A stretch of 64,000 nt of DNA, from the NCBI GenBank assembly GCA_021775595.1, contig JAJFHN010000010.1, forward strand, positions 62,001-126,000, read 5' to 3'. Source of the stretch: Hyphomicrobiales bacterium (GTDB lineage Bacteria > Pseudomonadota > Alphaproteobacteria > Rhizobiales > Methyloligellaceae). The notes beneath the pieces are model-generated. The model did no database searches and was not told the DNA's origin. It saw only the letters and a list, made by a program, of their open reading frames with translations. The translations under genes and the position numbers were made by a program. Shown one piece after another: positions 1 to 24,462 of this stretch (positions are counted from its first letter, which is position 1; each line of letters begins with the position of its first letter).

Positions 1-879
1 ACCACCCCGATAGCGCTCTGCCGCCTCAAGCAGACGGTCGGTGGCGTCGTCGCGGCGGTTCAAAATGACGTCCTCGACGAGTTCCCTCAGCTCCGGCTTG
101 ATGTCGTCATAGATGGCGAGCTGACCGGCGTTGACGATCGCCATGTCGAGGCCGGCCGGAATGGCGTGAAACAAAAACACCGAATGCATGGCCTCGCGCA
201 CTTGGTTGTTGCCGCGAAACGAGAAGGAGAGATTGGAAATACCGCCCGATACATGAACGTGGGGGAGCGTCTCTTTGATGCGTCTGGCCGCCTCGATAAA
301 GGCGAGCGCATAACCATTGTGCTCCTCGATGCCGGTGGCCACGGCAAAGACATTGGGATCGAAGATTATGTCCTCGGGTGGAAAACCAATCTCGTCAATG
401 AGCGTCCTGTAAGCGCGTTCACAGATCGCAACCTTCCGGTCGGCCGTCTCGGCCTGACCGGTTTCGTCGAACGCCATGACAACCGCCGCCGCACCGTAAC
501 GGCGGATCTTGCGGGCCTGTTCCAGAAACGGCTTATCGCCCTCTTTGAGGCTGATCGAATTGACGATCGATTTGCCTTGCACGCATTTGAGGCCCGCCTC
601 GATGACCGACCATTTGGATGAGTCGATCATCACCGGCACCCGCGCGATATCGGGTTCAGAGGCAATGAGGTTGAGGAAGGTCGTCATCGCCGCTTCGGAA
701 TCGAGCATGCCCTCATCCATATTGACGTCGATGATTTGGGCACCATTTTCGACCTGCTCGCGGGCCACGTCGACGGCAGCCGCGTAATCATCGGCTTCGA
801 TGAGTTTGCGGAATTTGGCCGAGCCAGTGACGTTGGTCCGCTCGCCGATATTGACGAATGATTGGGCTGCGTTGCTCAC
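1..879 (-). CDS. metH2: Methionine synthase second chain, folate-binding part (partial, MetH2)
   Basis: This is the amino-terminal part of a B12-dependent methionine synthase chain; the carboxyl end lies beyond the left edge. The 293 visible codons form the pterin (methyltetrahydrofolate) binding barrel. They open with [13 protein letters not shown] and later show [11 protein letters not shown]-type and [10 protein letters not shown] motifs typical of MetH. Translation probably starts at a GTG (877-879) behind AAGGA. The break from the upstream homocysteine-binding chain falls in the natural inter-domain linker, so this looks like a real two-protein MetH, not a frameshift. The B12 and activation domains should lie outside the window. 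Last gene of the sahR-metF-metH1-metH2 operon. Confidence 0.9.
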
Positions 880-902
880 GTCGTTTGCGTCCTTGGCGTG
901 AT

Positions 903-1967
903 CTATTGGGGAAGCGCGTAGGGCTCGAGGCCCGAGAGGCGCATTCGCGGCTCGGGCACCGGCACCTCGCGAGGCGGATAAGGGCTGACAGCCTCGATGA
1001 CGGCTTTGATGTGGTCTGGCGAACTGCCACAGCAACCACCGATGATGTTGATGAGCCCGGATTGGGCCCATTCTCCGAGCAGCTCGGCCATCTCCTCCGG
1101 TGATTGATCGTACTCGCCCAATTCGTTCGGCAGGCCGGCATTGGGATAGGCGCAAATGAGCGTATCGGCGACCGCCGCCATATCGGCCACGGCCGGACGA
1201 AGTTGCTCGGCGCCGAACGCGCAATTCATTCCGGCAGCAAAGGGGTTGAGGTGCTGCATTGAATTCCAAAATGCTTCTGGCGTTTGGCCCGATAGATTGC
1301 GCCCCGACAGGTCGGTGATCGTGCCAGATACGATGATCGGGAGCTCAAGACCGAGTTCATCGAAGACCTCAAGCACCGCAAAGCCCGCCGCCTTGGCGTT
1401 CAGAGTGTCGAATACGGTCTCGATAAGCATGATGTCCGCGCCGCCCTCTATCAGGCCACGGACCTGCTCGCCATAAGCTTCGACAAGTTGATCGAAGGTC
1501 ACGTTGCGGAAACCTGGATTGTCGACATCGGGCGAGATCGATGCGGTCCGATTGGTTGGGCCGATCGCACCTGCCACGAAGCGCGGCTTGTCCGGTGTCT
1601 TGGCGCTCCAGCGGTCGGCGGCTTCGCGGGCCAACTGCGCGGCCGCGACATTCAACTCACGGGCGAGCCCGCCCAGGCCGTAATCGTCCAACGAAATCGA
1701 CGTGGCGTTGAAGCTGTTGGTTTCAACGATATCGGAACCCGCCTCGAAATAAGCGTCGTGGATGGCGCGAATGATGTCGGGCTGGGTCAAGGCCAATAGG
1801 TCGTTGTTGCCACGCAGATCGGAGGCGTGATCCTTGAAGCGCTCGCCGCGGTATTCGGCTTCGCCCAATTTGTGGCGCTGGATCATCGTTCCCATCGCGC
1901 CGTCGAGAAACAGGATTCGGGCCGCGGCGGCGGCCTGAAGCGTTTCCAGTGTTTCTTCGCGCGTCAT
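903..1967 (-). CDS. metH1: Homocysteine S-methyltransferase chain of split MetH
   Basis: 354 residues covering only the homocysteine-binding barrel of MetH. The zinc cysteines are visible as MNCAFGA and GGCCGSSP near the C-terminus, and the chain ends just after the SGLEP linker motif. It should bind zinc-thiolate homocysteine and receive the methyl group from the cobalamin chain encoded 23 bases downstream. Its ATG overlaps the metF stop codon (ATGA), which implies translational coupling. A single-chain MetH is about 1,230 residues, so this is one module. Two-chain MetH is known in other alphaproteobacteria. Confidence 0.93.
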
Positions 1968-2872
1968 GAAGAGACTTCCTCCTGCACGTCTTCACTCCCC
2001 AGTTGCAAACCAAGCTGGCTGCAGATCTGCTCCACAAGAGGGGCTCGATTGAGGGTGTAGAAATGAAACTCCCGAACGCCCGCCTCTTTAAGAGCAAGCG
2101 CCTGCTTGCCCGCCACATCTATCGCCACTTCGGCGTGCTCTTGGGGATTGTCTTCGAGCCCCTCGAAGCGCTTCACCAGCCAGTCGGGCACGTCGGTGCC
2201 ACAGCGCGCGGCAAAGCCCGCGACCTGCTTGAAATTGTGAATCGGGATCAAACCGGGCCGAATGGGCGCATCGATGCCGCGTGCCCGGGCCGCATCGAGA
2301 AAGCGAAAGAAGCCATCGTTATCGAAGAAGAATTGGGTGATCGCCCGACTCGCGCCCGCATCGATTTTTGCCTGCAGAATATCGAGGTCCTTCTCAAGGC
2401 CGACGCTCTCGGGATGGCATTCGGGATACGCCGATACCGAAATGTCGAAGTCGCCAATACGGCGAATCCCCGCCACCAGCTCGGCCGCGGTCGCATAGCC
2501 GTCGGGATGGGGTTCGAAGGCCGTGCCCAAACCCGTCACGGGATCGCCGCGCAGAGCCACCAGACGGCGAACGCCCATGTCGAGATAGCTGCGGATGACT
2601 TCGTCGACCTCGTCGCGCGAGGCGGCCACACATGTCAAATGCGCTGCCGGCACAAGTTGTGTCTCGTCAAGAATGCGCGCTACGGTTGCGTGGGTGCGCT
2701 CCCGCGTCGAACCGCCAGCGCCGTAGGTCACGGACACGAATTGAGGTCCGAGCGGCGCCAGTTGATTGATGGACGACCAAAGGGTCGCGGCCATCTTATC
2801 TGTCTTGGGCGGAAAGAACTCGAACGATACGCTCAACGGTTCTGCGGACATGGTCTGTTGTGCGTCTGTCAC
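1964..2872 (-). CDS. metF: 5,10-methylenetetrahydrofolate reductase
   Basis: About 302 residues. MetF reduces methylene-THF to methyl-THF with FAD and NADH and so feeds the methionine synthase encoded downstream. The family motifs FEFFPPKT near the start and ALRGDP in the middle are present. I chose the GTG at 2872 because it overlaps the sahR stop (GTGA) and has a GGAGG ribosome-binding site about 8 bases upstream. The ATG at 2851 would give 295 residues, equally close to E. coli MetF (296). The tight overlaps on both sides show that regulator and enzymes are cotranscribed. Confidence 0.93.
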
Positions 2873-3879
2873 GAAACGGCCTCCAGCTTTTTCGAGCGGC
2901 TCACTCGCGAGACAATGGGTTCGCGCTCGCCAAGCCAAAGACGGACCGTCAGTTTGTTGCCGCTCTCTTTCTTCTTAGGCTCGAGCTCGCGGACAGCCGT
3001 CATGGTCAAGCCGGCGTCCTCGAACCATTGAGCCATTTGATCGCGCTCGAATCCCAATCTCAAATGAGCGAATTCTTCGCGCAGAAAATCGAGACCGTGG
3101 GCTGCGAAATCGACCACCAGCAGGCGGCCGCCGGGTGCAAGAACGCGCGCGGCCTCGCGCAAGGCCGGCGCTGGATCGCTCAAAAAATGCAGCACTTGGT
3201 GCAGGATCACGGCATCAGCCAGTCCATCGCTCAATCCAAGACTGAACAAGTCGCCCTGGCGCACCTGGCAATGGCGCATGCCGGCCTGCTCTAGCTTTAC
3301 GCGGCCGTAGGCCAGCATATCGGGGTTCATATCAATGCCGATACCGCGCCGGACATAGGGCGCGAACAGTTCCATGATTCGTGCCGTTCCGGTGCCCAGA
3401 TCAACCAGCAGATCGAACGGACCCTCACCCAGCGCCGCAAGCATTGCCGCTTCGACCTGCTGTTCGGTGATATGTAGCGTGCGGATGCGATCCCATTGAT
3501 CGGCATGGGCCCTGAAATAGATCTGAGCGGCTTCGGCGCGCTCTTCGCGAACCGCCGCGGCGCGGTCGCGGTCGCGTTTCAAAACCACGTCTTCTGAATC
3601 CAATGCCCTGATGAACTCCTCCACGAGGCGCGCCGGCGCGCCGGTTTCGGCAAGCCGGAAAAACACCCAACTGCCCTCGCGGAAGCGCTCGATCAAGCCG
3701 GCGTCGGCGAGCAATTTGAGGTGACGGCTGATGCGCGGTTGGCTCTGTCCCAAGATGCGCGTCAGATCGCTCACATTGTGTTCGCCCCGGGCGAGCAGCG
3801 CCAAGAGCCTAAGCCTGGTTGCTTCGCCGGCCGCCTTGAGTGAGGCAAGCGCACCGGCGCTGGAGAGCGGGTCGGACAT
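2869..3879 (-). CDS. sahR: ArsR-family regulator with methyltransferase-like sensor domain (SahR-type)
   Basis: 336 residues with two parts. An ArsR winged helix lies at about residues 10-80 (recognition region SQPRISRHLKLL), followed by a class I methyltransferase fold with the SAM/SAH motif VDLGTGTARI at about 159-168. SahR regulators of Proteobacteria have this layout; the methylase-like domain senses S-adenosylhomocysteine, which releases the repressor from DNA and induces SAM-cycle genes including metF and metH. Here it heads the operon containing exactly those genes, and a perfect palindrome sits 41 bases upstream of its ATG. The function is inferred from architecture and context; the sequence does not show whether the domain also catalyses methylation. 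Confidence 0.85.
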   Translation of the reverse strand: MSDPLSSAGALASLKAAGEATRLRLLALLARGEHNVSDLTRILGQSQPRISRHLKLLADAGLIERFREGSWVFFRLAETGAPARLVEEFIRALDSEDVVLKRDRDRAAAVREERAEAAQIYFRAHADQWDRIRTLHITEQQVEAAMLAALGEGPFDLLVDLGTGTARIMELFAPYVRRGIGIDMNPDMLAYGRVKLEQAGMRHCQVRQGDLFSLGLSDGLADAVILHQVLHFLSDPAPALREAARVLAPGGRLLVVDFAAHGLDFLREEFAHLRLGFERDQMAQWFEDAGLTMTAVRELEPKKKESGNKLTVRLWLGEREPIVSRVSRSKKLEAVS

Positions 3880-3916
3880 GGCCGCGATGATCTCTGATGT
3901 CTGTTAACAAGAGTTT

Positions 3917-3944
3917 ACGATATAAAGATATCTTTATATGTCAA
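3917..3944 (-). promoter_or_regulatory. Promoter and SahR-type operator of the metF-metH operon
   Basis: A perfect 20-bp palindrome, atataaagatatctttatat, occupies 3920-3939. On the minus strand a TTGACA -35 box (3944-3939) abuts it, and a TATCGT -10-like box (3922-3917) overlaps its other edge with a 16-bp spacer. A repressor bound here would occlude the promoter. AT-rich sites with an AAAGATATCTTT core are what I recall for SahR-family operators; I could not verify this against a motif database. Confidence 0.75.
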
Positions 3945-4072
3945 TCGCAAATAGTTTGCGCAAGTCTCCTTGGCTGTAACCATGGGCCGGGTTGGGCTTT
4001 CGCATCCAGAGACAATTTGGCTAAGATAACTGCCATAGTCCGGTTTCAGTTCAGCCACATCAGCGAGCCCCC

Positions 4073-4936
4073 ATGCTTACCGCCGCAAAGATTTCCAAAT
4101 TCTCCATCAAATTCGCGCTTATCACCACTATATGCCTGACGACATTCGAGCTGACGGCGCCCGCCGCTCGGGCCGAAGCGCCAAGCGATGCCGGCAGCGC
4201 CGGTCTCGAGGCCGTGATCGCCGGCAATCACCGCGACCCAAAGAACGCCGCACGCGATACGTTCAGACATCCCAAAGAGACCTTGAGCTTTTTCGGCCTG
4301 AAACCGGATATGAGTGTGGTTGAGATTTGGCCCGGAACGGGCTGGTACACCGAGATCTTAGCGCCCTATCTCAAAGAAAGCGGCACCTATTATGCCGCCA
4401 GTTGGGACAAGGACGAAAAGCGCAGTTTTGTCCAAGAGAACTTGAAAAAATATCACGACAAACTGAAGAGCCGGCCGGATATCTATGACAAGGTCACGGT
4501 CACGGAACTCTCCAAATCCAAAACCAACATTGCGCCCGCCGGCTCGGCCGACATGGTTCTTACCTTCCGCAACGTTCACAATTGGATGCTGCATGGATTT
4601 GACCAGGCCGTGTTCGAGACAATGTTTGCCGTGCTCAAGCCGGGAGGTGTTCTGGGTGTGGTCGAACATCGCGCCGACCCCGAGGCCTTTCCTGATCCGC
4701 AAGCCAAATCGGGCTACGTGCAAGAAGATCAGGTGATCCAAATGGCCGAAGCGGCTGGATTTAAGCTGGTCGAAAAATCGGAAATCAACGCCAATCCACG
4801 CGACACCCGCAAGCACCCCAGAGGCGTGTGGACGCTGCCGCCGACTTTGCTGCTGAAAGACCGCAATCGCGAGAAATACCTCGCCATTGGCGAGAGCGAC
4901 CGGATGACACTGAAATTCGTTAAACCAGCGTCCTGA
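4073..4936 (+). CDS. Exported class I methyltransferase-fold protein (COG4798-like)
   Basis: 287 residues. A signal peptide is likely: a basic start, a hydrophobic stretch ending in TTFELTAPAARAEA, then the mature protein. The rest resembles predicted methyltransferases with a degenerate motif I, VVEIWPGTGWYTEIL, and a later VLKPGGVLGVVEHR stretch. SAM is a cytoplasmic cofactor, so an exported member is odd and may bind something else or act before export. It is divergent from the methionine operon with about 190 bases between the starts, but nothing links it to that pathway directly. Substrate unknown. Confidence 0.8.
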   Translation: MLTAAKISKFSIKFALITTICLTTFELTAPAARAEAPSDAGSAGLEAVIAGNHRDPKNAARDTFRHPKETLSFFGLKPDMSVVEIWPGTGWYTEILAPYLKESGTYYAASWDKDEKRSFVQENLKKYHDKLKSRPDIYDKVTVTELSKSKTNIAPAGSADMVLTFRNVHNWMLHGFDQAVFETMFAVLKPGGVLGVVEHRADPEAFPDPQAKSGYVQEDQVIQMAEAAGFKLVEKSEINANPRDTRKHPRGVWTLPPTLLLKDRNREKYLAIGESDRMTLKFVKPAS

Positions 4937-4952: not shown

Positions 4953-5378
4953 CTATTTCACGGTGATGGTGATCGTCTCCGATTCGATCGGCGGATCGTG
5001 CGGTATGTGGTTGAGGTCGCCGACGATCAGCTGAAGCGTGTGTTGACCGGGCGCGAGCTCGATGCTCGTTTCGGTCTGGCCGCCGCCGAAATGCTTATGG
5101 GTGTCGTCGGCTGGAATGGCGGCGTCATAGTCTTCGAGCTTTTGATCGATCAGCAGATGATGGTGGCCGGTCGCCGCCTTCTCGGTTCCTGCTGGCGCCA
5201 CTCCCAATCCCTTAAGACCAAAGCTTACGGTCAGCGGACTGGCGACTTGCGCGCCGTCGGTGGGCGTAATGAAATAGACCGCAGCGCTCTCTGGCGCCTT
5301 GGTGCGTTGTGCCCAGGCGGGCGCCGGAGTTATGAGAAGCGCGAAAACGAGCGCGGCTGCAACGCTGCTGTATTTCAT
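4953..5378 (-). CDS. DUF4399 domain periplasmic protein
   Basis: 141 residues with a clear signal peptide ending ...LITPAPAWAQ. The mature part has the DUF4399 pattern: VYFITPTDGAQVASPLTVSFGLKGLGVAP, then a GHHHLLID segment, DDTHKHFGGGQTE and a final beta-rich LQLIVGDLNHIPH. The repeated histidines could bind a metal, but this is inference. It converges on the exported methyltransferase-fold gene with a 16-base gap. The function of the domain is not established. Confidence 0.82.
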   Translation of the reverse strand: MKYSSVAAALVFALLITPAPAWAQRTKAPESAAVYFITPTDGAQVASPLTVSFGLKGLGVAPAGTEKAATGHHHLLIDQKLEDYDAAIPADDTHKHFGGGQTETSIELAPGQHTLQLIVGDLNHIPHDPPIESETITITVK

Positions 5379-5469
5379 TCTGCCTGTCTCCTGTTTGGTG
5401 GCTGTGGGCTTGTCTCTTCAAACTTAGCCTGGATATGGCGGGAGTGGGAGGAACATCAAGGCTGGCTGC

Positions 5470-7128
5470 TCAATCGCGGGTGAAGCGCTTGTACCGAATG
5501 CGCTTGGGAATGATCGAATCCTCACCCAACCGCCGCTTCTTGTCTTCTTCGTAGTCGGCAAAATTGCCTTCGAACCATTCGACGTGGGAATCACCCTCAA
5601 AAGCCAGCATGTGGGTGGCAATGCGATCGAGGAAGAAGCGATCATGGCTGATGATAACGGCGCAACCGGCGAAGTCCTCCAGGGCTGCCTCCAAGGCTGA
5701 GAGCGTCTCGACATCGAGATCGTTGGTCGGTGCGTCAAGCAGCAGCAGATTGGCGCCGAGCTGGAGCATCTTCGCCAGATGCACGCGGTTGCGTTCACCG
5801 CCCGAGAGCTGGCCGACCTTCTTTTGCTGATCGCCGCCGCGGAAATTGAACCAGCTGACATAGGCGCGCGATTGCACCTCGCGTTTGCCGAGCTCGATCA
5901 CGTCGTTGCCGCCTGAGATCTCCTCCCAGACCGTCTTGCCGTCGGCCAGCGTGTCGCGGCTCTGATCGACATAGCCGAGTTCGACCGTATCGCCGATCCT
6001 GATTTCGCCGGAATCAGGTTTCTCCTGTTCGGTGATCATCCGGAACAGCGTGGTCTTGCCAGCGCCGTTGGGTCCGATGACGCCAACGATGCCGCCGGCA
6101 GGCAGCTTGAAGGAGAGGCCATCGATCAACAGTTGATCGCCGAATCCCTTTGCCAGGTCCTTCGCCTCAATCACCAAATCACCCAACCTGGGTCCGGGGG
6201 GGATGGTGATCTGTGTCCGCTTGACGTCATCGCGATTGGCCTCGGCCAACAGCTCATCGTAGGCGCGAACGCGCGCTTTTGATTTGGCTTGGCGAGCCCG
6301 AGGGCTCGCTTGGATCCACTCGAGTTCGCGCTGCAAGGTCCGCTCGCGGGCTTCGTCATGGCTCTTTTCTACGCTCAGACGCTTCTGCTTCTGGCCCAGC
6401 CACGAAGAGTAGTTGCCTTCGTATGGAACGCCCTTGCCACGATCGAGCTCCAGCGTCCAACCGGTGATGTTGTCCAGAAAATACCGGTCATGGGTGACCA
6501 TCGCCACGGTACCGGTATAGGCCTGCAGAAAACTTTCCAGCCAGGCGACGGTTTCAGCATCCAGGTGGTTTGTCGGCTCGTCGAGCAGCAGAATGTCGGG
6601 CCGGCGCAACAGAAGACGGCAGAGCGCCACCCGGCGGCGTTCACCGCCCGAAAGCTTGTCGACCTGACTATCGCCCGGCGGGCAGCGCAAAGCTTCCATG
6701 GCCATCTCAACCCGAGACTCCAAGTCCCACAAATCATGCGCGTCTATTTCATCTTGCAGGCGCGACATCTCCTCGGCGGTTTCGTCCGAATAATTCACCG
6801 CCAGCTCGTTATAGCGCTCGAGCATCGCTTGCTTTTCGGACACGCCTTCCATGACGTTGCCGGCGACATCCTTGGTTGCATCGAGTTCCGGCTCTTGGGG
6901 CAGATAGCCGACCGTAATCCCCTCTGCCGCCCACGCCTCGCCCGTGAATTCGGTATCGAGACCCGCCATGATGCGCAGCAGCGTCGACTTGCCCGCGCCG
7001 TTGACGCCGACGACACCGATCTTGGCGCCGGGCAGAAATGACAGCGTGATGTCCTGAAGCACCGCCTTGCCGCCGGCATAGGCCTTCGACAAATGATTCA
7101 TGACATAAACGTATTGCGGTGTGCTCAT
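5470..7128 (-). CDS. ettA: Energy-dependent translational throttle protein EttA (ABC-F)
   Basis: 552 residues from the ATG at 7128; the open frame extends further upstream, but this start matches the family length (E. coli 555). It is an ABC-F ATPase with two ATP-binding cassettes and no membrane domain; EttA binds the ribosomal E site and gates early elongation according to energy charge. Cassette 1 has GVNGAGKST and an intact [11 protein letters not shown]. Cassette 2 has GPNGAGKTT and [11 protein letters not shown], but its Walker B reads [12 protein letters not shown]. The catalytic glutamate is therefore alanine (about residue 466, codon GCA at 5731-5733). That could abolish hydrolysis at site 2 or be an assembly error. 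Confidence 0.93.
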
Positions 7129-7245
7129 GGGTCGGGGTTGCCTCGAAGCGAAAAGAGAATCGCTGATGTGGAAGAGAGTGGCGGCTCTTCTAGCCAATCT
7201 GTCCGCCAGGCTCAATAATGCGATCGATAAAACAGGGAGACGACC

Positions 7246-7908
7246 TTGAACCAGCCCAACAGTTCACCGGCTCCAGATCAAAAGCAACTGCTCTATTTCG
7301 CCGATCCCATGTGCTCATGGTGCTGGGGCTTTTCACCGGTGATTATGGCGATCGCCGAAACCCATGGCGAGCGTCTTCCGATCCGGCCGATGATGGGCGG
7401 GCTGCGCCCTGGCACCGACAAGGCGATGGACGAAAGCGATAAAGGCGAGATCCGCAGTCATTGGGAGCACGTTCAAAGCGGCACGGGGCAGGATTTCGAC
7501 TTCGACTTTTTCGAGCGCGACGGTTTCGTCTACGACACCGAGCCGGCCTGCCGGGCAGTGGTGACGGCGCGGGGGCACGGTTCGGTCCAGGGCCTCGCGA
7601 TGCTGGCGCGATTGCATCGTGCGTTTTATGCGGAAAACCAAGACATCACCGATGCCGGCGTCGTCGCCAAGCTGGCGCTGGAAGAAGGGCTCGATGAGGG
7701 AAATTTCTCCGAGATTTTTGCCTCCGAGACCGCCAAGCAAGTGACCGAAGCCGACTTCCAGATTGCTCAGCGGCTTGGCATCCGGGGCTTTCCGACGCTG
7801 TTGGCCGGCACCGAACAAGAGGGTTTCGCGCTCGTCACCAACGGTTATCAACCGCTCGAGGCGCTGGCCGGGCCGATTGCGCAGTGGCTGGAAGATGAGG
7901 TCACCTGA
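7246..7908 (+). CDS. DsbA-family thioredoxin-fold protein (CSWC)
   Basis: 220 residues of a DsbA/FrnE-like oxidoreductase. The active-site motif PMCSWCWGF (cysteines about 23 and 26) follows the first strand LLYFAD, and a cis-proline segment GIRGFPTLL lies near residue 185. There is no signal peptide, so it is likely cytoplasmic, like the predicted protein-disulfide isomerases of COG3531. The proposed start is TTG at 7246, placed behind AGGGAG; no suitable ATG precedes the CSWC motif. It is divergent from ettA. The partner substrate is unknown. Confidence 0.85.
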
Positions 7909-7920
7909 GGACCTTGGCCA

Positions 7921-8955
7921 TCAAGCGCGAAACAGTTGCGGCAGGCGGTCCTTGATGTCGGCCGCCAAGCGGTCGAGATGATTGTCAGACATCGGGCGCA
8001 CGTCGCCGAGCGCTGCGGAAAAAGTCTCAATGCCCAAATTCGCAATGGACAGACAGCGGCACCAATCGTTGGCCAACAGCCATTGCCGGTACTCGGCCTC
8101 CTCCGGCTTGAAGGAGTGATGCTCGGGTGCGACGCCGATCACCGGCAAGCGCGCGGCGATCGCCTCCGAGAGCATTGTGCTTGAGTCCTCGGTGCAGACG
8201 ACGATATCGCTGCGGCCAAACAGCTTGGGCAGCGTGCCCGGACCAGCCCAGCGATAATCGATGAAGTCGGCGACGACGTTTTTGTCTTTGGCCAATTCGA
8301 ACACCGCCTCGCCAACGGATCTGTCGGTGCGGCGCGATGTGGATATCAGCCAGCGCGTCCCCCAGGCCGCCGAAAGCGCGCGAAGGAAAGCGATCAGCGC
8401 CTGCCATTCCTCCGTGCGATAACGGAACAGGCCAGAGTCCCCGCCGATCAGCAGACCGGCAAACTGGGGACGATTTGCGCCATTGAAGACGGGTACTGCA
8501 GCGGGCCGGCCAAGCGCATCGGGATCCATAGCGCTTGGCTTCAAGGTGACGAGATGGCGCGGACGCCCGGCAAAACGTTCATATGACGTGATGACCAAAG
8601 ACAGATCTTCCGGCGGCACGTCCCGCAGCGATCCGCAAAAAATATTCGGCACGTCCAGCGCGCGCGCCGCAGCTACATTGGCGGGCAAGGTCTCGCCGCC
8701 GGCTGAGAGCACGAGATCGGCATCGCCCAGCGCTTGCGGCCCAACGCCATAACCCAGACGCAGAATAAGCCGCGGCGGCAAACCTGCAGACAGCGCGCGC
8801 CGCAGGATGCGGGTCGGTATCAAGGAATTGCGGTCGATGCGCAGCTCGCGGATACTGGCAGACCCCAACCGCGCCAGAGCGGCTCCAACGCCCTCGGCCA
8901 AATGATAATGGCCGGGCCGCCCGTCGGAGAGCAGCAAGACTTTCAATTCATTCAT
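7921..8955 (-). CDS. ELM1/GtrOC1-family putative glycosyltransferase (copy 1)
   Basis: 344 residues of the mitochondrial-fission-ELM1-like family (DUF1022). The N-terminus LLLSDGRPGHYHLAEGV and the C-terminal CTEDSSTMLSEAIAARLPVIGVAP resemble the two Rossmann halves of GT-B glycosyltransferases. The family name comes from plant ELM1; the bacterial members are predicted sugar transferases with unknown acceptors. The gene overlaps nothing and converges on the DsbA-like gene. A second, divergent family member lies at 25191-26234. Confidence 0.8.
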   Translation of the reverse strand: MNELKVLLLSDGRPGHYHLAEGVGAALARLGSASIRELRIDRNSLIPTRILRRALSAGLPPRLILRLGYGVGPQALGDADLVLSAGGETLPANVAAARALDVPNIFCGSLRDVPPEDLSLVITSYERFAGRPRHLVTLKPSAMDPDALGRPAAVPVFNGANRPQFAGLLIGGDSGLFRYRTEEWQALIAFLRALSAAWGTRWLISTSRRTDRSVGEAVFELAKDKNVVADFIDYRWAGPGTLPKLFGRSDIVVCTEDSSTMLSEAIAARLPVIGVAPEHHSFKPEEAEYRQWLLANDWCRCLSIANLGIETFSAALGDVRPMSDNHLDRLAADIKDRLPQLFRA

Positions 8956-9050
8956 GCCGGCTCACCCATTGGCGTTGCGTCTGCGGCAGGCATCATTAGA
9001 GTCCAATCCAAATTATACCCAAGCACCCGCCGAAGAGAGTCTCCCAACAT

Positions 9051-11042
9051 ATGTCGCACGCTCGATCCCGCCTCATCCCCCGCACCAAGCTGTTTGGCAA
9101 TCCACAACGCGCCATGTGCCAGCTTGCTCCTGACGGCGCAACGCTTTCCTGGCTGGCTCCGCGCGATGGCGTGCTGAATATTTGGACCGCCCCAGCCGAC
9201 GACATCGACGCCGCCGAACCGGTAACCGATGATCGCGGGCGCGGCATTCGTTTTTATGCTTGGGCGCGCAGTGGATCGCATCTGATCTACATTCAAGACG
9301 AGGCCGGCAACGAGGATTGGCACGTCTACGCCACGCAGGCCCAAGGCGGACAAGCACGCGACCTGACGCCGATCAAGGGCGTGCATGCGCAAATTTCCGG
9401 CGCGAGCTGGGATCAGCCCAATGTGTTGATGGTGGGACTGAACGACCGGGATCCGCGCTGGCACGATATCTACCGGATCGACATTGAATCGGGCGAGCGC
9501 GAGCTCGTCGTCCAAAACGACATGGAATTCGGCGGCTTCACGCTCGATCGCGCGCTGCAGCCGCGTATCGCGCAAAAAACGCTGCTGCAGGAGGGTGGCC
9601 GCGAATTCTTCCGCTTCGATGGCGACACCTGGGAGCCCATCTTCCGGATTGGCCACGAGGACGAGCTCGCAACCGGTTTCATCGGCTTTGAGCGATCGGG
9701 TGATCACGCTCACATTTTGGATTCGCGCGGCCGCGACAAGGCCGCGCTGGGGCGCATGGCGCTGGCCACTTGCGAGGTCGAAATCGTCGCCGAAGATGAC
9801 AAGGCCGACATCTCGGATGTGCTGGCTCATCCCACCAGCTATGAGATCGAGGGCTATGGCACCAATTATCTTAAGTTGGAATGGACCCCGCTCGATGAGG
9901 CCATGGGGCAAGACCTTGCCCACCTACAGGGCGCGATCGAGGGCGAAATCCGCATCACCAGCCGCAGCAAGGCCGATGACCGTTGGATCGTATCGGCCGT
10001 CGCCGCCGATGCGCCCGAAACGACATATCTTTATGAGCGCGGCGCTCGCTCGCTGACCCGGCTGTTTTCGAGCCGGCCCGATCTCGAAAACGAAACGCTC
10101 AGTCCGATGCACCCGGTCGTCGTCCCGTCGCGCGACGGCCTGGAGCTGGTGTCATATCTTACGCTGCCCGCCGAGGCCGATATCGACGGCCGACCCGAGA
10201 AGCCGCTGCCAATGGTGTTGTTGGTCCATGGCGGACCCTGGGCGCGCGATGGCTATGGCTACAATCCCCAACACCAGTGGCTGGCCAATCGCGGTTACGG
10301 CGTGCTTTCGGTCAATTTCCGCGGCTCAACGGGCTTTGGCAAAGCGTTCGTCAACGCCGCCGATCTCGAATGGGGCGCGCGCATGCACGACGACCTGCTT
10401 GATGCGGTCGATTGGGCGCGCGAAGCGGGCATCGCCAAGCCAGAGATGGTGGCCATTATGGGCGGGTCTTATGGCGGCTATGCCACGCTGGCCGGGCTCG
10501 CGTTCACGCCAGAGGTATTTGCCTGCGGCGTTGACATTGTCGGGCCGTCGAACCTCGAAACGCTGCTTGCGACCATTCCGTCTTACTGGGCGTCGTTTTA
10601 TGAGACGCTGGCGCGCCGCGTCGGCGACCCGCGCAATGATAACGGCTTGGCGCTGCTGAAGGCGCGCTCGCCGCTCCATGCCGCAGACAGGATCGCCCGC
10701 CCGTTGCTGATCGGTCAGGGCGCCAATGATCCGCGCGTCAAGCAAGCCGAATCCGACCAAATCGTCACGGCCATGAAAGCCAACGATCTTCCTGTCACCT
10801 ATGTGCTCTATCCCGACGAAGGGCACGGCTTCGCCCGGCCTGAAAACCGCATGTCGTTTTACGCCATCGCCGAGGCCTTTCTGGCCCGCCATTTGGGCGG
10901 CGGCGCGGAGCCGTTTGGCGACGACTTTAAAGGCTCCAGTCTCGAGGTTCCCGAAGGCGCCGATCAGTTGGATGGGCTGCCCACTGCTCTGGCGCGCGAG
11001 TCTGACGGCCAAGCGGCGACGCAAGAGAAGGCGGGGGCATGA
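9051..11042 (+). CDS. S9 family prolyl-oligopeptidase-type peptidase
   Basis: 663 residues. The N-terminal half is a beta-propeller; the C-terminal half is an alpha/beta-hydrolase. The catalytic triad is visible: Ser about 473 in GGSYGGYA, Asp about 560 in GANDPR and His about 592 in DEGHGF. This is the acylaminoacyl-peptidase/DPP-like group that cleaves short peptides. No signal peptide is apparent, so a cytoplasmic location is likely. Its stop overlaps the ATG of the TerB-like gene (ATGA), indicating a two-gene operon. Confidence 0.92.
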   Translation: MSHARSRLIPRTKLFGNPQRAMCQLAPDGATLSWLAPRDGVLNIWTAPADDIDAAEPVTDDRGRGIRFYAWARSGSHLIYIQDEAGNEDWHVYATQAQGGQARDLTPIKGVHAQISGASWDQPNVLMVGLNDRDPRWHDIYRIDIESGERELVVQNDMEFGGFTLDRALQPRIAQKTLLQEGGREFFRFDGDTWEPIFRIGHEDELATGFIGFERSGDHAHILDSRGRDKAALGRMALATCEVEIVAEDDKADISDVLAHPTSYEIEGYGTNYLKLEWTPLDEAMGQDLAHLQGAIEGEIRITSRSKADDRWIVSAVAADAPETTYLYERGARSLTRLFSSRPDLENETLSPMHPVVVPSRDGLELVSYLTLPAEADIDGRPEKPLPMVLLVHGGPWARDGYGYNPQHQWLANRGYGVLSVNFRGSTGFGKAFVNAADLEWGARMHDDLLDAVDWAREAGIAKPEMVAIMGGSYGGYATLAGLAFTPEVFACGVDIVGPSNLETLLATIPSYWASFYETLARRVGDPRNDNGLALLKARSPLHAADRIARPLLIGQGANDPRVKQAESDQIVTAMKANDLPVTYVLYPDEGHGFARPENRMSFYAIAEAFLARHLGGGAEPFGDDFKGSSLEVPEGADQLDGLPTALARESDGQAATQEKAGA

Positions 11043-11437
11043 GCGACAAGTCCGAACGCGACAATTTGATCATGCGGGTGATGATCGCAATCGCCGCAGC
11101 CGATGATCGCTTGGTCGAGGACGAAACCGCAACGATCTGCGGTATCTACCAAAAACTGACCGGCGCCACGATTGGCGCCACCGAAGTCGCCCAAGCCATG
11201 GAGGCCGATGGCGCCGCTGACACTGACCGTCTGCGGAGCGAATTGGCGCAGCGACGCGACGAGCTCGACATGGCGACGAAAGAAATGCTGATCCGCGCCG
11301 CCTATATGGTGCTGATGGCCGACAGGCGCATTTCTGCAGGAGAGCGCAAGAAGCTGCACGACTATGCGGACGCCTTGGAAATCCCGGAAATTCACCTGAC
11401 TGCGATACTCGAAGACCTCTCATCGCTCAGCGACTGA
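11039..11437 (+). CDS. TerB-like (TerB/DjlA fold) protein
   Basis: 132 residues, all-helical and acidic, with the paired pattern of the TerB fold: MRVMIAIAAADDRLVEDE near the start and AAYMVLMADRRISAGERKKL near residue 100. Each half carries a D-x-x-(I/L)-x-x-x-E helix-turn. TerB-like proteins are linked to tellurite resistance or, as in DjlA, to chaperone contacts; a lone copy has no defined role. It is translationally coupled to the S9 peptidase, and no other ter genes are present. Confidence 0.8.
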   Translation: MSDKSERDNLIMRVMIAIAAADDRLVEDETATICGIYQKLTGATIGATEVAQAMEADGAADTDRLRSELAQRRDELDMATKEMLIRAAYMVLMADRRISAGERKKLHDYADALEIPEIHLTAILEDLSSLSD

Positions 11438-11529
11438 GCGCGCGATGGCGCGCGCGGGCGCGATTCCACAGTTCTTAACCATTCGCCTCTAGGCTCGCTT
11501 CCGGGTCGTGTTAGTTGGGGTGAGTAGCC

Positions 11530-12075
11530 ATGTGCGGGCTTGAGTCTCGCGTCGCACTGTTTGTCAGTTCTTTTCTTGTCGCGTTCGGTTTCTTTGTGGG
11601 CATGACGTACGCCCCGGATCTCGAGCAAGAGCGGCGCACATTCGTCGATACCTACTTCTTTGTTGGAAAATTCGCTCGGTCTGAATTGTTTCGGGCCGGC
11701 CTGGTTCGACCCGAGCCCGAAGACATTGGCGCCTCCACCCAGGGCTCCCGCGCCGAATTGGCGATACCGGTCAACAGCGCATTGCAAAAAGATCTGGAAC
11801 TGCTGATCGAATTTTCGCTCGATCCGAAACTGGCTCAGCGCGGCGTTGAAATCGTCGTCAACGGTGAAAAGCTCGCTGAGTGGACCTTCAAGCCGGGCAA
11901 ACGGCGGCTGGCGCGATCGCTGCGCATTCCCTCCGGCTTGTGGCAGCCGGGCGCGCCGCTGAACATAGCGATCTCCGCCAAGAAAGTGCGGACCATCGAA
12001 TCGGCGTCGGCAGCACTGCATCAGCCTACGCTCGGCATGATCCTTTATGCCGTTTCCGTCTATCAGATGTCTTGA
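11530..12075 (+). CDS. Membrane-anchored protein of unknown function
   Basis: 181 residues that I do not recognise. One hydrophobic segment at about residues 8-28 (ALFVSSFLVAFGFFVGMTYA) could be a signal anchor. The rest looks periplasmic and mostly beta (ELLIEFSLDP, VEIVVNGEKLAEW, LNIAISAKKV), suggesting an immunoglobulin-like fold. The ATG at 11530 follows GGTGAG. It stands alone between the TerB-like gene and the tRNA. Confidence 0.6.
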   Translation: MCGLESRVALFVSSFLVAFGFFVGMTYAPDLEQERRTFVDTYFFVGKFARSELFRAGLVRPEPEDIGASTQGSRAELAIPVNSALQKDLELLIEFSLDPKLAQRGVEIVVNGEKLAEWTFKPGKRRLARSLRIPSGLWQPGAPLNIAISAKKVRTIESASAALHQPTLGMILYAVSVYQMS

Positions 12076-12079
12076 ATTT

Positions 12080-12156
12080 TGGTGGGCCCGGCAGGACTCG
12101 AACCTGCAACCAGACGGTTATGAGCCGTCGGCTCTAACCAGTTGAGCTACGGGCCC
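12080..12156 (-). tRNA. tRNA with CAT anticodon (elongator Met, or Ile2)
   Basis: A complete 77-base cloverleaf on the minus strand. Acceptor GGGCCCG pairs with CGGGCCC; the D arm GCTC/GAGC, anticodon stem GACGG/CCGTC and T arm GCAGG-TTCGAGT-CCTGC all pair. CCA is encoded (12080-12082). The anticodon is CAT at 12120-12122. CAT is shared by initiator and elongator tRNA-Met and by tRNA-Ile2, whose C34 is modified by TilS; the paired acceptor end argues against an initiator. I cannot separate Met from Ile2 by eye. Confidence 0.95.
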
Positions 12157-12298
12157 ACCCCGTACGGCAGCGCAGCTATAGCAATTCAAGCGACGAAGCG
12201 GTAGCGGGCGTGTTCGCACGCTGCCGCAATGGCGACGGAATCGGCTGACAGGTTGCGTACCAGTCGAACACCCTCACGCATTCAGCGGACCAATTCCC

Positions 12299-13012
12299 AT
12301 GAAAAACATGACTTATTCGACCCTGCTCTTTCTCGCCATCTCACTGCTGGCTCTTTCCCCGGCACACGCAATCTCCAAGGACGACAGGCGGACGCTCGCG
12401 ATCAGCGCTACCGGCACCGTCAAGGCGCCGGCCGATATCGCCCATATTTCGACCGGCGTGGTCAGTGAAGCCAAGACCGCACGCGCCGCTCTCGATGCAA
12501 ATACCGCCGCCATGGCGGGCGTCGTTGGCGAACTCAAGTCCCAGGGCATCGAGCCCAAGGACATTCAGACATCCAACTTCGCCGTTTTTCCGCGCTATCA
12601 GAGAAACAAAGACGGCGTGACCCAATCGGTCATCATCGGCTACCGGGTGACGAATTCTGTGACGATTACCGTCCGCGATCTTAAGAGTCTCGGTGGAATT
12701 CTCGATTCCGTGGTGACGTTGGGCTCCAATAAAATCGGCGGCATCACCTTCGCCATCGATGATCCGACGAAACTGCGCGACGAGGCCCGCAAGCGGGCGA
12801 CTGCCGACGCCCTGCGAAAGGCAAAGCTCTATGCCGAATCCGCCGGCGTGGGTCTGGGCGAAATTCTCTCGATCAACGAAAATGTCATGTCGAGGCCACC
12901 CCGTCCGATGATGGCGCGTATGGCGATGGAGGCTAAGTCAGCCGACGTACCGATCGAATCGGGTGAGCTTTCGATTGAGGTGCAGGTCAATATTGTTTGG
13001 CAGATTGAGTGA
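12299..13012 (+). CDS. SIMPL domain (DUF541) periplasmic protein
   Basis: 237 residues with a signal peptide (LLFLAISLLALSPAHA). The mature protein starts with the family hallmark LAISATGTVKAPADIAHISTGV and has a second conserved stretch, ARKRATADALRKAKLYAESAGVGLGEI, at about 165-190. SIMPL proteins are exported or membrane-bound and often linked to oxidative-stress resistance, but their biochemistry is undefined. It stands alone downstream of the tRNA. Confidence 0.87.
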   Translation: MKNMTYSTLLFLAISLLALSPAHAISKDDRRTLAISATGTVKAPADIAHISTGVVSEAKTARAALDANTAAMAGVVGELKSQGIEPKDIQTSNFAVFPRYQRNKDGVTQSVIIGYRVTNSVTITVRDLKSLGGILDSVVTLGSNKIGGITFAIDDPTKLRDEARKRATADALRKAKLYAESAGVGLGEILSINENVMSRPPRPMMARMAMEAKSADVPIESGELSIEVQVNIVWQIE

Positions 13013-13194
13013 GCTTGCGCCAACAGGCTGACGGCGTTTGCGTGTTTCATGTTGTCAACGAGAGCTGCGCGGGTATTTACTGGCGCCGAATCTGGAGCGC
13101 CGCTCCGAATTTTCTCACGCGCTTGTGTCTTCTAAAAACATGGTGTGGCAGGCTATAGGTCGATCGAGACTGATCGCTGAATGATGGGTGAGGT

Positions 13195-14244
13195 ATGAAT
13201 ATAGAGACCGTCAAAGACTATTACGGCAAGACACTCAAGACGTCGTCCGACCTCAAGACCGAAGCCTGTTGCACGCCCGACGACATTCCGGATTTTGTCC
13301 GGGTCCTGCTCGCCAATATCCATCCCGAGGTTCTGACCAAGTACTACGGCTGCGGCCTGGTCACGCCGCTGGCGCTTGAGGGCGCGCGGGTTCTCGATCT
13401 GGGCTGCGGCGCGGGTCATGACGTCTATGCGCTTGCCCAGCTCGTCGGCGAACAAGGTGAAGTCGTCGGTGTGGATATGACGCCCGAACAATTGGATGTA
13501 GCGCGCGCGCATGTCGGCTGGCACACCGAAAAATTCGGATTCAGCGCCGACAACGTTCGCTTCCTGGAAGGTTATATCGAAGACCTGGGCGCGCTTGATT
13601 TGGAGCCCGCCAGCTTCGATGTGATCGTTTCCAATTGCGTCATCAATCTCTCGACCGACAAGCCCGCCGTGTTTGAAGGCGCCCGGGCCCTGCTTAAGCC
13701 CGGCGGTGAGTTCTATTTCTCAGACGTCTATGCCGACCGGCGGCTCTCCGATGAGCTGCGCAAAGATCCCGTGATCTATGGCGAATGCTTGGGCGGCGCC
13801 CTCTATTGGAACGACTTTAGCGATATCGCCAAACGAGCGGGCTTTAAGGATCCCCGCCTTGTGGCCGATCGGGTGCTTGAGATTTCGGACGCCGCGTTGG
13901 CCGCGAAGCTTGGTCAAGCACGTTTCTTTTCAGCGACTTACCGGTTGTTCAATATCGATGAGCTCGAACCGGCCTGCGAAGATTACGGCCAGGCCGTGAT
14001 CTATAAGGGCGGCATCGAGCATGCCGGCGACGCGTTCGTGCTGGATGATCATCATGTGATCGAAAAGGGCCGCACATTCCCGGTCTGCGGCAACACCTGG
14101 CGCATGCTCGAGGCCTCGCGCTTCAAAACCCATTTCGAATTCATCGGCGATTTCTCGACCCATTGCGGCATCTTCCCGGGATGCGGGACAACGCTGCCCT
14201 ACGGCGAGAAGGAGCCCGAGGCTAGCACCAGCGGCTGCTGCTAA
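13195..14244 (+). CDS. arsM: Arsenite S-adenosylmethionine methyltransferase
   Basis: 349 residues. ArsM methylates As(III) using SAM. Motif I is VLDLGCGAGHD (about 67-76). The cysteines that define ArsM are at the expected spacing: Cys25/26 in TEACC, Cys53 in YYGCG, Cys148 in SNCVINLS and Cys198 in GECLGGALYW. The Cys148-Cys198 distance of 50 equals that of the characterised algal enzyme. A C-terminal extension adds GCGTT and a terminal GCC. No arsR, arsB or arsC gene lies nearby; the only possibly related gene is an arsenosugar-type glycosyltransferase 46 kb away. Confidence 0.92.
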   Translation: MNIETVKDYYGKTLKTSSDLKTEACCTPDDIPDFVRVLLANIHPEVLTKYYGCGLVTPLALEGARVLDLGCGAGHDVYALAQLVGEQGEVVGVDMTPEQLDVARAHVGWHTEKFGFSADNVRFLEGYIEDLGALDLEPASFDVIVSNCVINLSTDKPAVFEGARALLKPGGEFYFSDVYADRRLSDELRKDPVIYGECLGGALYWNDFSDIAKRAGFKDPRLVADRVLEISDAALAAKLGQARFFSATYRLFNIDELEPACEDYGQAVIYKGGIEHAGDAFVLDDHHVIEKGRTFPVCGNTWRMLEASRFKTHFEFIGDFSTHCGIFPGCGTTLPYGEKEPEASTSGCC

Positions 14245-14277
14245 AGCAGCAGGTTGCAGGACGGCAGGCTTCTGGGA

Positions 14278-16305
14278 TCAGTTGTCCAGGAACGAGCGCA
14301 ATTTGCGTGAGCGCGAGGGGTGCTTCAATTTCCGCAAGGCCTTGGCTTCGATCTGGCGAATGCGCTCGCGGGTGACCGAGAACTGCTGCCCCACCTCTTC
14401 CAGCGTGTGGTCGGTGTTCATACCGATGCCAAAACGCATGCGCAGCACGCGCTCCTCGCGCGGGGTGAGAGAAGCGAGCACGCGGGTCGTTGTCTCACGC
14501 AGATTCGACTGGATCGCCGCGTCGATCGGCAAGACCGCGTTCTTGTCCTCAATGAAATCACCGAGATAGGAATCTTCCTCGTCGCCAATCGGCGTCTCGA
14601 GGCTGATCGGCTCTTTGGCGATCTTGAGCACCTTGCGCACCTTCTCGAGCGGCATGGCGAGCTTTTCGGCAAGTTCTTCGGGCGTCGGTTCACGGCCAAT
14701 CTCGTGCAACATCTGGCGCGATGTGCGCACGATCTTGTTGATGGTCTCGATCATGTGCACGGGTATGCGGATGGTGCGGGCCTGATCGGCGATCGAGCGG
14801 GTGATTGCCTGACGGATCCACCAAGTGGCGTAGGTCGAGAATTTGTAACCGCGGCGGTATTCAAATTTATCAACCGCCTTCATCAGGCCGATATTGCCTT
14901 CTTGGATCAGGTCAAGAAACTGCAGGCCACGGTTGGTGTATTTCTTGGCGATCGAAATCACCAACCGGAGATTGGCCTCGACCAGTTCCTTCTTGGCGAT
15001 GGCCGCTTCGCGTTCGCCCTTTTGCACGATTTGAACGATGCGGCGGAATTCCGAAATCTCAAGGCCGGTCTCGGTGGCGAGCGACTGGATCTCCTTGCGG
15101 AGGTCCTTGATCATGTCGCGCTCGGCTTTGACGAATTTTTCCCAACCCTTGCGCTTGAGCCGTCCCACTCGGCGCAGCCAGTTGGGATCAAGCTCATTGT
15201 CCTGATATTCGTTCAGAAAATCCAATCGGGCGACACCGTACGAATCGGCAAGTCGCAAAATACGCCCCTCAAAGCCCATCAGCCGGCGATTGATGTTGTA
15301 GAGCTGCTCGACCAAGGCCTCGATGCGATTGTTGTTGAGCGATAGGCTCTTGACGTTGGCGACAATCTCTTCGTCGAATTTCTGGTAGCGCTTTTCCTGG
15401 CTGGAGCTGAGCGAAGAAGCCTTCAGTTTCTTTTCGACCAGCTGGTCCTGCAATTTGCGCAATTTGCGGTAGTCGCCGGCAATCAAGTCGAAGGTCTCAA
15501 GCACTTGAGGCTTGAGCTCGGCCTCCATGGCGGCAAGCGACAGGGAGTTCTCCATGTCGTCGTCGTCGTCTTCTTCAAGTTCCTCGCGTTCGTTCGAGCT
15601 TTCGCCATCACCGGAGTCTTTGGCGGCATCAGCGCCATTGGCCTGTTCTGCGCCCGGCGTCCCATCGGCCGCCTTGGTCTCACCCTCAGCGCCCTCTTCG
15701 TCGTCGGGCGACTTTGGCGTTTCCTTGGCGTCGGGTCCGGCATATGTCGCTTCGAGATCGATGATGTCGCGCAGCAGAATGCGGCCCTCATTCAACTCGT
15801 CGCGCCAGATAATGATGGCTTGGAAGGTAAGCGGGCTTTCGCACAGACCCGCGATCATTGCCTCGCGGCCGGCTTCGATGCGTTTTGCGATGGCAATCTC
15901 GCCCTCGCGCGACAACAGTTCGACCGATCCCATCTCGCGCAGATACATGCGCACAGGATCGTCGGTGCGTTCAGCCGGCTCGGTGGTCTTTGTCTGCTTG
16001 GTCGGCAGCTGCGTTACGACGGCCGGGCGCGGGGCGGCACCCTCTTCGGCCTCCTCGGCCTCTTCCGTCTCTACGACATTGATTCCCATGTCCGAGAGCA
16101 TCGACATGATGTCCTCGATCTGCTCGGAGGAAACCTCCTCAGACGGCAAAACCTCGTTGAGCTCGTCATAGGTGACGTAGCCGCGCTGCTTGGCGGTTTT
16201 GATCAGCCGCTTGACAGCGGCGTCCGACATATCGAGAAGCGGTCCGTCTTGTCCCTCGCCGGACGCGGCTTCGCGATTCTCAGTTTGAGCGGTTTTCGTC
16301 GCCAT
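14278..16305 (-). CDS. rpoD: RNA polymerase primary sigma factor (sigma-70)
   Basis: 675 residues with the full primary-sigma layout: region 1.1 at the N-terminus ([25 protein letters not shown]), region 1.2 around [12 protein letters not shown], the core 2.1-2.4 segment ending in [17 protein letters not shown], and region 4.2 [17 protein letters not shown]. Between 1.2 and 2 is a long acidic, low-complexity stretch (about residues 195-255) rich in D, E, G and A, which is variable in the family. It follows dnaG in the classic order dnaG-rpoD. Confidence 0.97.
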
Positions 16306-16448
16306 GTACGTCTCCGAAAAACATCAATTACTCTTGATCCGGCCGAACCCGCCGTCTTCAAACAAATCGGGTGCGAACCACACAGTGAACGATGCTTCGC
16401 TTAATGCAGCATTAACTATGGGTCGCGCCATTTGCCAATTACCGCCTG

Positions 16449-18410: not shown

Positions 18411-18501
18411 GGGTGATTCGGGTAACTCCCAAGTCCCTGATTATAGGGAATTGGGGTGGTAATCGCGAATTATGATTGGCGCGCAGGGTCGCTTTGAGAC
18501 G

Positions 18502-18951
18502 CTATTTCAACAGCTCTTTCACAATTTGACTCGCTTTGCCGAAGTCCATTTGACCGGCGTAGCGCTCCTTAAGCGCGCTCATGATCCGGCCCATATCCCG
18601 CAGGCTTTCACCACCCATTTCCGTCACGACCGCCTCGCATGCCGCGCGCGTCTCGTTCTCGGCCATTTGCTCGGGCATGAACGTCTGGATGATGTCGATT
18701 TCTTCCTGCTCTTGCTGGGCAAGCTCGAGCCGGCCGGCATTTTCGTAGGCCTCGATCGATTCGCGGCGCTGCTTCACCATCTTGGCGAGGATTTCCAAAA
18801 TCTGGGTGTCGTTGAGACCGTCTTGGCCGCCGGAGCGGGCCGCGATGACGCGATCTTCGATTGCGGCATTGATCAAGCGCAGCGTCGACATGCGCCGTTT
18901 TTCTTGCGCCTTGATAGCCGCCTTGAGCGCAGCGTTTATTTTTTCACGCAT
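18502..18951 (-). CDS. GatB/YqeY domain protein
   Basis: 149 residues, the usual length of stand-alone YqeY. The protein begins MREKINAALKAAIKAQEKRRMSTLRLI, typical of this all-helical fold, which resembles the tRNA-contacting tail of the GatB amidotransferase subunit. Its own function is not proven. It precedes dnaG in the same orientation with a gap of about 90 bases and is divergent from carA. Confidence 0.9.
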   Translation of the reverse strand: MREKINAALKAAIKAQEKRRMSTLRLINAAIEDRVIAARSGGQDGLNDTQILEILAKMVKQRRESIEAYENAGRLELAQQEQEEIDIIQTFMPEQMAENETRAACEAVVTEMGGESLRDMGRIMSALKERYAGQMDFGKASQIVKELLK

Positions 18952-19154
18952 ATGAGGTCGCTTAACATGACGATGAAAGCCATAAGCCTAAAGCAGCGCT
19001 GGGTCACGAGCAACACGTTTTTTTAGTTTAACTCATTGAAAAACATGAAGAAAGTTATGCACAGATCGGTTGACCCGCCGACCCGATTCCCCTAGTCTCC
19101 GGCCAATTTGGCCAATATCGTGCTGCTGACCTTAGACAATGGCGCGTTCGGCCT

Positions 19155-20465: not shown

Positions 20466-20536
20466 ACATCATCGCGCCCAAACCGGCGAGCGCTTGCTCT
20501 TGATGCGCATTCAGTTATAAGCGGCGCCGACCCCAG

Positions 20537-23500: not shown

Positions 23501-23785
23501 CATCTCGATGCCAACGGCATAACATGCGAGCCAATTAACAAGGTTCTGGAGGGACGCCCGCACGTTGTGGACGCCATGAAAAACGGCGATGTCGACATCG
23601 TCTTCAACACCACCGAGGGAGCGCGCGCGCTGACCGACAGCTACTCAATCCGCCGCACGGCCTTGCTCTACCACATTCCATATTATACAACGCTTGCTGG
23701 CGCCATGGCGGTTACCAAGGCGATCGAGGCCGTAAAGGCCGATATATTGAAGGTCCAACCACTTCAGAGTTACGTTAACCGATAG
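20537..23785 (+). CDS. carB: Carbamoyl-phosphate synthase large chain
   Basis: 1,082 residues, the expected size. It has two homologous ATP-grasp halves beginning [23 protein letters not shown] and, near residue 565, [22 protein letters not shown]. The C-terminal MGS-like allosteric domain ([30 protein letters not shown]) is complete. It condenses bicarbonate, ATP and CarA-derived ammonia. All features look ordinary. greA follows in the same direction. Confidence 0.98.
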
Positions 23786-23896
23786 GATCGAATCTGTCGG
23801 TGCGGGTGGTTGCGGCATCCCAACGGCAATCCCATAATCTGTATGCCGGAATAATATCGCCGCTGTTGGCGAAGAAAACGAATTGATGGTGACGAG

Positions 23897-24370
23897 ATGG
23901 AAAAAGTCCCCATGACGACGGAGGGCTACGAGGCCATAAAGGTGGAAATTCAGCACCTTAAGACCGTCGAGCGGCCGCGCATCATTCAAGCCATCGCCGA
24001 GGCGCGCGCCCATGGCGACCTGTCGGAGAACGCCGAGTACCACGCTGCTAAAGATCAGCAGGGCCTGACGGAAGCCCGCGTCGCCGATCTCGAGGACCAA
24101 CTCTCACGCGCCGACGTGATCGACGTCTCGAAGCTGTCTGGCAAACACGTGAAGTTCGGTGCGACGGTCACTCTGGTCGACGAAGATACCGAGGAAAAGG
24201 TCAGGTACCGCATCGTTGGCGAGTTTGAAGCCAACGTGAAAGACGCAAAGATTTCAATTACTTCACCCATTGCCCGGGCACTGATCGGCAAGACCATTGG
24301 CGATTCGGTTGAGGTTGCCACGCCGGGCGGCGGCAAATGCTATGAGATCTTGCAGGTCAAGTTCGCCTGA
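23897..24370 (+). CDS. greA: Transcription elongation factor GreA
   Basis: 157 residues, normal for GreA. The N-terminal coiled coil carries the acidic tip [13 protein letters not shown] (Asp and Glu that reach the RNA polymerase active site to stimulate cleavage of backtracked RNA). The FKBP-like C-terminal domain ends [21 protein letters not shown]. The ATG at 23897 lies behind GGTGACGAG. carAB-greA is a common alphaproteobacterial gene order. Confidence 0.97.
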
Positions 24371-24402: not shown

Positions 24403-24462
24403 GGCAGGGCATTTGCGCCGGTTGCGAAAATTCTCACGAAGATGAACTGACGCGGGTCCGGC

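Follow-up and report, generated by a model that had tools for sequence, protein, structure and literature searches.

A conserved 20-bp palindrome as the very probable SahR operator of the sahR-metF-metH1-metH2 operon in a family near Methyloceanibacter

SahR, a SAH-sensing repressor of Proteobacteria, has been published together with a 20-bp palindromic motif and a core regulon, which includes metK and is a statistical core, not a strict criterion (PMC4239095). The published sampling comprised 15 Rhizobiales genomes, 11 of them with SahR as the table reads, and SahR was listed for four of four Caulobacterales genomes (PMC4239095). Autoregulation was reported in Ensifer aridi (PMC8877191). SahR and its palindrome being already described (PMC4239095), the idea of such an operator is not new. 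Another line of work concerns ArsRM of Brevundimonas sp. M20, a member of Caulobacterales. ArsRM is encoded by the first gene of an arsRM-metF-HMT-metH operon, shifts its own promoter in gel shift assays, and was reported to methylate As(III); the palindrome quoted for it is CTTTATATAAAG (PMC10190100). The name SahR has no occurrence in the main text of that paper.

The window, that is, the whole 64-kb stretch of DNA analysed here, belongs to a family placed near Methyloceanibacter and Methyloligella, its best named relatives. It contains the perfect palindrome ATATAAAGATATCTTTATAT, which is composed of two copies of the half-site ATAAAGAT, with GAT and ATC adjacent at the centre (Table 1). 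Its length equals that published for SahR, the two having been compared by length and not by letters. No perfect palindrome in the window is longer, the next ones measuring 18 and 16 bp, and at up to three mismatches it is the sole match to itself; 100 dinucleotide shuffles of the window gave zero matches at that threshold. The GC content of the surrounding DNA is 59.6%. A scan of the minus strand predicted a promoter with a 16-bp spacer and 10 of the 12 consensus letters. The sequence-only reading had described a symmetric 20-bp palindrome within positions 3917-3944, filling the spacer behind a TTGACA box and lying 41 bases upstream of an ArsR/methyltransferase fusion gene. The symmetry and the location between the two boxes were confirmed; the edges of the palindrome overlap the last base of the -35 box, the A common to both, and the first three bases of the -10 box. 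The upstream position also stands, and the distance from the palindrome end to the sahR ATG at 3879 was corrected to 40 bases. Of 80 orthologous promoters, only 4 have TTGAC immediately next to the palindrome, so exact placement within the spacer of the predicted promoter is a feature of the lineage and not of the system.

Table 1. Features of the sahR operon and its promoter region in the window
Feature	Position	Strand	Basis
Proposed SahR operator, perfect 20-bp palindrome ATATAAAGATATCTTTATAT	3920..3939	none	Sequence and conservation at orthologous promoters
TTGACA, -35-like box	3939..3944	minus	Promoter scan, consensus match only
TATCGT, -10-like box	3917..3922	minus	Promoter scan, consensus match only
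sahR, 336 aa	2869..3879	minus	Pfam, conservation, structure model
metF, methylenetetrahydrofolate reductase	1964..2938 (ORF as listed)	minus	Pfam; linked in 80/80 named loci
metH1, homocysteine S-methyltransferase module of split MetH	903..1967	minus	Pfam; linked in 77/80 named loci
metH2, 5' part	1..900	minus	Genome reading frame, Pfam; linked in 69/80 named loci

The proposed order of a fusion gene followed by metF-metH1-metH2 was upheld by Pfam, which placed MTHFR and then homocysteine S-methyltransferase after sahR and recognized the pterin, B12 and activation domains of MetH in metH2. The latter gene runs past the left edge of the window, with 900 as its approximate start, and the true start of metF is probably an internal ATG near 2851, as judged by eye. 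Each linkage miss among metF, metH1 and metH2 lies in a locus whose DNA ends about 430 bases or less past the last gene found. As a side observation, the metH2-homologous part begins directly after metH1 in L047 and roughly 710-770 bp after it in L055, L057, L063 and L064, where an extra gene is possibly inserted between the two.

The regulator consists of an ArsR-type winged helix (about residues 20-75; HTH_5, 53.1 bits) and a class I methyltransferase-like domain (about residues 155-265; Methyltransf_11, 76.9 bits), both scores being above the cut-off. Among 81 proteins, the recognition helix Q45-H53 is nearly invariant, position 50 being I or V, as is the wing R65-F73, and the SAM-pocket residues D160, G162-T165 and D183 are conserved in 100%; the conservation of pocket and helix was also viewed in a 28-row SahR alignment. 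The structure model of the protein has a mean pLDDT of 85.7, and fold comparison with the PDB showed that it resembles SAH- and SAM-bound methyltransferases with an N-terminal domain, Rv2258c-SAH ranking first; with an rmsd of 15-19 for the whole-chain alignments, the comparison is informative for the domain folds only. A sequence search matched 25 solved chains, none of them named as a SahR. A single Cys, C204, is present in the protein.

Conservation of the palindrome was assessed in the regions upstream of sahR. The named set consisted of 79 named contigs and the window's own, L026 and L061 having been dropped since their upstream regions were too short. Up to three mismatches to the window palindrome were found in 76 of these 80 regions, with 0 mismatches in 6, 1 in 18, 2 in 37, 3 in 15, 4 in 2 and 5 in 2, and the site consensus derived from letter counts was AYATAAASATATSTTTATRT. 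The closest match in shuffles of this set had six mismatches (1600 single-letter and 800 dinucleotide shuffles). A class-wide sample of Alphaproteobacteria, which took 80 of 101 SahR matches and overlaps in part with the named set, gave 62 of 80 regions at three mismatches or fewer and 18 at four or more, and the best of its 800 shuffles were one with four and one with five mismatches. Nothing recognizable as the site was seen in the sahR upstream regions of G247 and G143 of that sample. An everted operator, with the half-site order of CTTTATATAAAG, was rejected as a second alphaproteobacterial class, as it occurred at up to three mismatches in 2 of the 80 class-wide regions vs. 62 for the window form; G134 was ambiguous between both forms. 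A full-length SahR was lacking in 10 of 121 genomes, and one of these, G031, nevertheless carries a site before ahcY.

The genes marked by the site were identified by scanning 30 genomes with a degenerate pattern at up to two mismatches, which matched 66 places. The pattern counted 60 matches on the forward and 58 on the reverse strand; for its reversed form, used as a control, the counts were 6 and 9. The 19 family genomes contributed 39 places, every one of them at sahR (19), ahcY (19) or metE (1, in G004), and in the 11 other genomes 23 of 27 places lay upstream of sahR, ahcY, metH, metE, metF or metK. Altogether, 62 of the 66 places were within about 500 bp upstream of one of these six genes, the two metE sites being about 450-500 bp from metE; two (G031:C376 and G032:C1) were not upstream of regulon genes and two further places were unassessed. 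Copies of metH, metE and metF that are unlinked to sahR in relatives, as called by Pfam, are also preceded by the site. A site before ahcY was present in 27 of the 29 genomes having this gene by profile score, the window organism included; G032 and G038 have ahcY without it, and G032 nevertheless has SahR.

In the window organism itself, a slightly relaxed pattern at up to three mismatches matched at sahR, at ahcY and twice in contig C36, four places in all. The ahcY site, ATATAAGGAATTCTTTATAT, lies 80 bp before the start. The assembly comprises 103 contigs and is 97.8% complete, and further sites could be missed. The two C36 sites were rejected as regulon members and treated as chance, given the AT-rich and phage-like character of the DNA around them. 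Of this 63-kb contig, 20 kb were read (5001-25000, L007); the GC content there is about 35%, vs. 60% in the host, phage-like ORFs occur beside a pair of group I introns, and the contig is probably a phage or a contaminant. Two relatives deserve a separate remark. Ahead of metE in G004 (G004:C733; L212 2517-2782), a SahR site is followed after 30 bp by a cobalamin riboswitch, and SAH and B12 apparently both control this gene. G036, a 2.3-Mb genome at 96% completeness, encodes a SahR-like protein at 35% identity and has sites at sahR and metF; no ahcY was found by a PF05221 search of its genome.

The sequence-only reading had taken the palindrome as the SahR operator of this organism and expected it to mark ahcY and metK elsewhere in the genome. 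The first claim gained support, as the site recurs before sahR across Alphaproteobacteria, before ahcY, and before unlinked metH, metE and metF. The whole-genome scan and listing of downstream genes that it had proposed divided the second: ahcY is marked, and metK is not. No site lies within 700 bp upstream of the organism's own metK, and the best match to the palindrome in the 10 kb around this gene has eight mismatches. The 700 bp upstream of metK held a site in none of the 19 family genomes examined. In the order as sampled, most metK loci are free of the site, 13 of the 109 examined having one, even though metK is a named core target of SahR. These loci represent 106 genomes, three of them with a second copy; for 102 loci the genome encodes SahR, absence of SahR having been assigned by hand from E-values. 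The profile cut-off for metK was 10, as no score fell between 4.6 and 13.3, and the set omits G031 (no upstream DNA), G020-G029, G100 and a fragment from G045.

In 93 of the 109 loci, metK is preceded by an XRE-type gene; the copy of the window organism (L010 5856-6281) is HTH_3 by Pfam. Upstream of the XRE-metK unit, a TTGAC promoter was conserved in 16 of the 18 family regions aligned, G017 having been left out, and neither an operator nor any other conserved element was detected in these 18 genomes. From this arrangement, metK is probably read together with the XRE-type gene from an operator-free TTGAC promoter. Two other accounts of metK were discarded. Strict mutual exclusion of the SahR site and the XRE gene seemed to hold in an initial 30 genomes but was contradicted by the larger set: nine of its metK loci have both, and in each of the nine the site lies between XRE and metK. 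Riboswitch control was searched for with Rfam at gathering scores, which found none in the own metK locus or in 17 others; the only match across those loci was the cobalamin riboswitch that precedes metE in L212.

The site, its conservation, the domain make-up of SahR and the two-operon regulon were established in silico, and a bare palindrome has become a testable two-operon regulon in a little-studied family. Because orthologous promoters carry the palindrome far beyond what shuffles give, it is very probably the operator of the SahR encoded in the window. By analogy with the studied orthologues, this protein would bind DNA, repress transcription and take SAH as its signal; the SAH step, taken alone, is likely. 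The simplest mechanism, and most likely the correct one, would be repression by promoter occlusion relieved by SAH. A SahR dimer would sit on the two half-sites and occupy the -35/-10 region, blocking transcription of sahR-metF-metH1-metH2, and binding at the second site would block ahcY. When SAH accumulates, it would enter the methyltransferase-like pocket and SahR would leave the DNA, turning on ahcY for SAH removal and metF, metH1 and metH2 for remaking methionine. In this scheme sahR would be autoregulated, and metK would lie outside the circuit in the window organism.

Several alternatives were weighed against this mechanism. SahR might bind the palindrome and respond to SAM, as for SamR, or to the SAM/SAH ratio and not to SAH. 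The pocket motifs suit SAM as well as SAH, the nearest PDB folds include methyltransferases solved with either ligand, and SAM is the proposed signal of the distant homologue SamR (PMC4239095). However, a regulon with ahcY and without metK suits a SAH sensor, whereas that of SamR has metK and no other SAM-cycle genes (PMC4239095), and SAM as the signal is considered unlikely. It is also quite unlikely, although compatible with a SahR operator, that the site doubles as a two-way operator for a divergent secreted methyltransferase-like gene at 4073-4936 on the plus strand. The start of that gene lies 134 bp beyond the far end of the palindrome, and a relative of it stands upstream of sahR in 8 of the 80 named loci, but such linkage is rare, some loci holding little upstream DNA, and a scan of 3700-4200 gave no promoter-like site facing the gene. 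Its methyltransferase-like product has a hydrophobic, signal-peptide-like start, as judged by eye. A more elaborate possibility is that SahR turns over SAM, with the conserved motif H-Q-x-L-H (H227-H231), R267 and H272 forming an active methyl-transfer site, in line with the activity claimed for its apparent orthologue ArsRM; the SAM/SAH state would be read partly by turnover, the regulon would be limited to SAH disposal and methionine rebuilding, and metK would be expressed from the XRE-linked promoter. This proposal is regarded as very improbable.

The residues in question connect SahR with ArsRM. H223, Q224, H227, Y228, F254, R263 and H268 of ArsRM correspond to H227, Q228, H231, F232, F258, R267 and H272 of SahR at a constant offset of 4. 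H227, H231, R267 and H272 are identical in 28 of 28 aligned SahRs, Q228 and F258 are kept in 27, and all 28 have F or Y at position 232; P296 of ArsRM falls on a variable position. On the basis of residue positions derived from text and of gene order, and not of the Brevundimonas sequence, ArsRM looks like a SahR orthologue, and the gel shift reported for it would be indirect evidence of operator binding. Two lines of work are joined in this way, one on a SAH-sensing repressor and the other on a claimed arsenite methyltransferase, which apparently concern the same protein. The cross-link may be new; among the papers found by searching for SahR together with arsenite, none concerned this point by its title. 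Given the apparent identity of SahR and ArsRM, the claim of arsenite methylation should be retested directly.

In arsenite methyltransferase (ArsM), a conserved Cys is required. The window protein was rejected as an ArsM, as its best arsenite methyltransferase model scored 50.7 bits vs. a cut-off of 263 and it contains one Cys. A related proposal, that it is mainly an arsenite-methylating enzyme binding its own promoter, with the palindrome coupling methylation of arsenic to the supply of methionine, is highly improbable. Brevundimonas ArsRM does head an operon of the same gene order, has DLGTGSG and was reported to methylate As(III) (PMC10190100), and its seven named residues map onto SahR at one offset. 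However, Cys134, proposed for the arsenic site, corresponds to T138, a position with Cys in 0 of 28 aligned SahRs; 5 of the 28 aligned segments are devoid of Cys, the low ArsM score and the single Cys of the window protein point the same way, and the 62 site-marked genes are methionine-cycle genes. The notion that an AT-rich symmetry arose here by chance, or that the palindrome is common to promoters in general, has almost no probability left, for although two of the four places at up to three mismatches in the own genome are chance-like and lie in the 35% GC contig C36, recurrence at orthologous promoters far exceeds shuffles and the conservation has already refuted it.

Compared with known systems, the putative SahR-operator pair of the window differs from each in some respect. 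The SmtB/ArsR metal-sensing repressors, chains of which were among the sequence matches, have the same ArsR winged-helix fold, but the match spans the wHTH only, and the window SahR has a single Cys and a methyltransferase domain. SamR of Xanthomonadales is a distant SahR homologue, encoded beside metH1-metH2 and likewise using a palindromic operator; its motif is of 24 bp, ATC-N10-GAT is common to SamR and the gamma SahR motif, and its regulon has metK without other SAM-cycle genes (PMC4239095). The window site was rejected as SamR-type, as GAT and ATC are adjacent at its centre and not arranged as ATC-N10-GAT, and metK is unmarked. ArsRM shares gene order and pocket residues at a constant offset with the window system, but it was published as an arsenite methyltransferase, and the half-sites of CTTTATATAAAG are in reverse order relative to the window palindrome (PMC10190100). 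SahR of Proteobacteria differs in that metK, a member of the published core, is unmarked in the window organism and the 19 family genomes; as published, it has the same ArsR-type wHTH and methyltransferase domain, heads a metF-metH operon, and has a 20-bp palindrome and ahcY in its regulon (PMC4239095).
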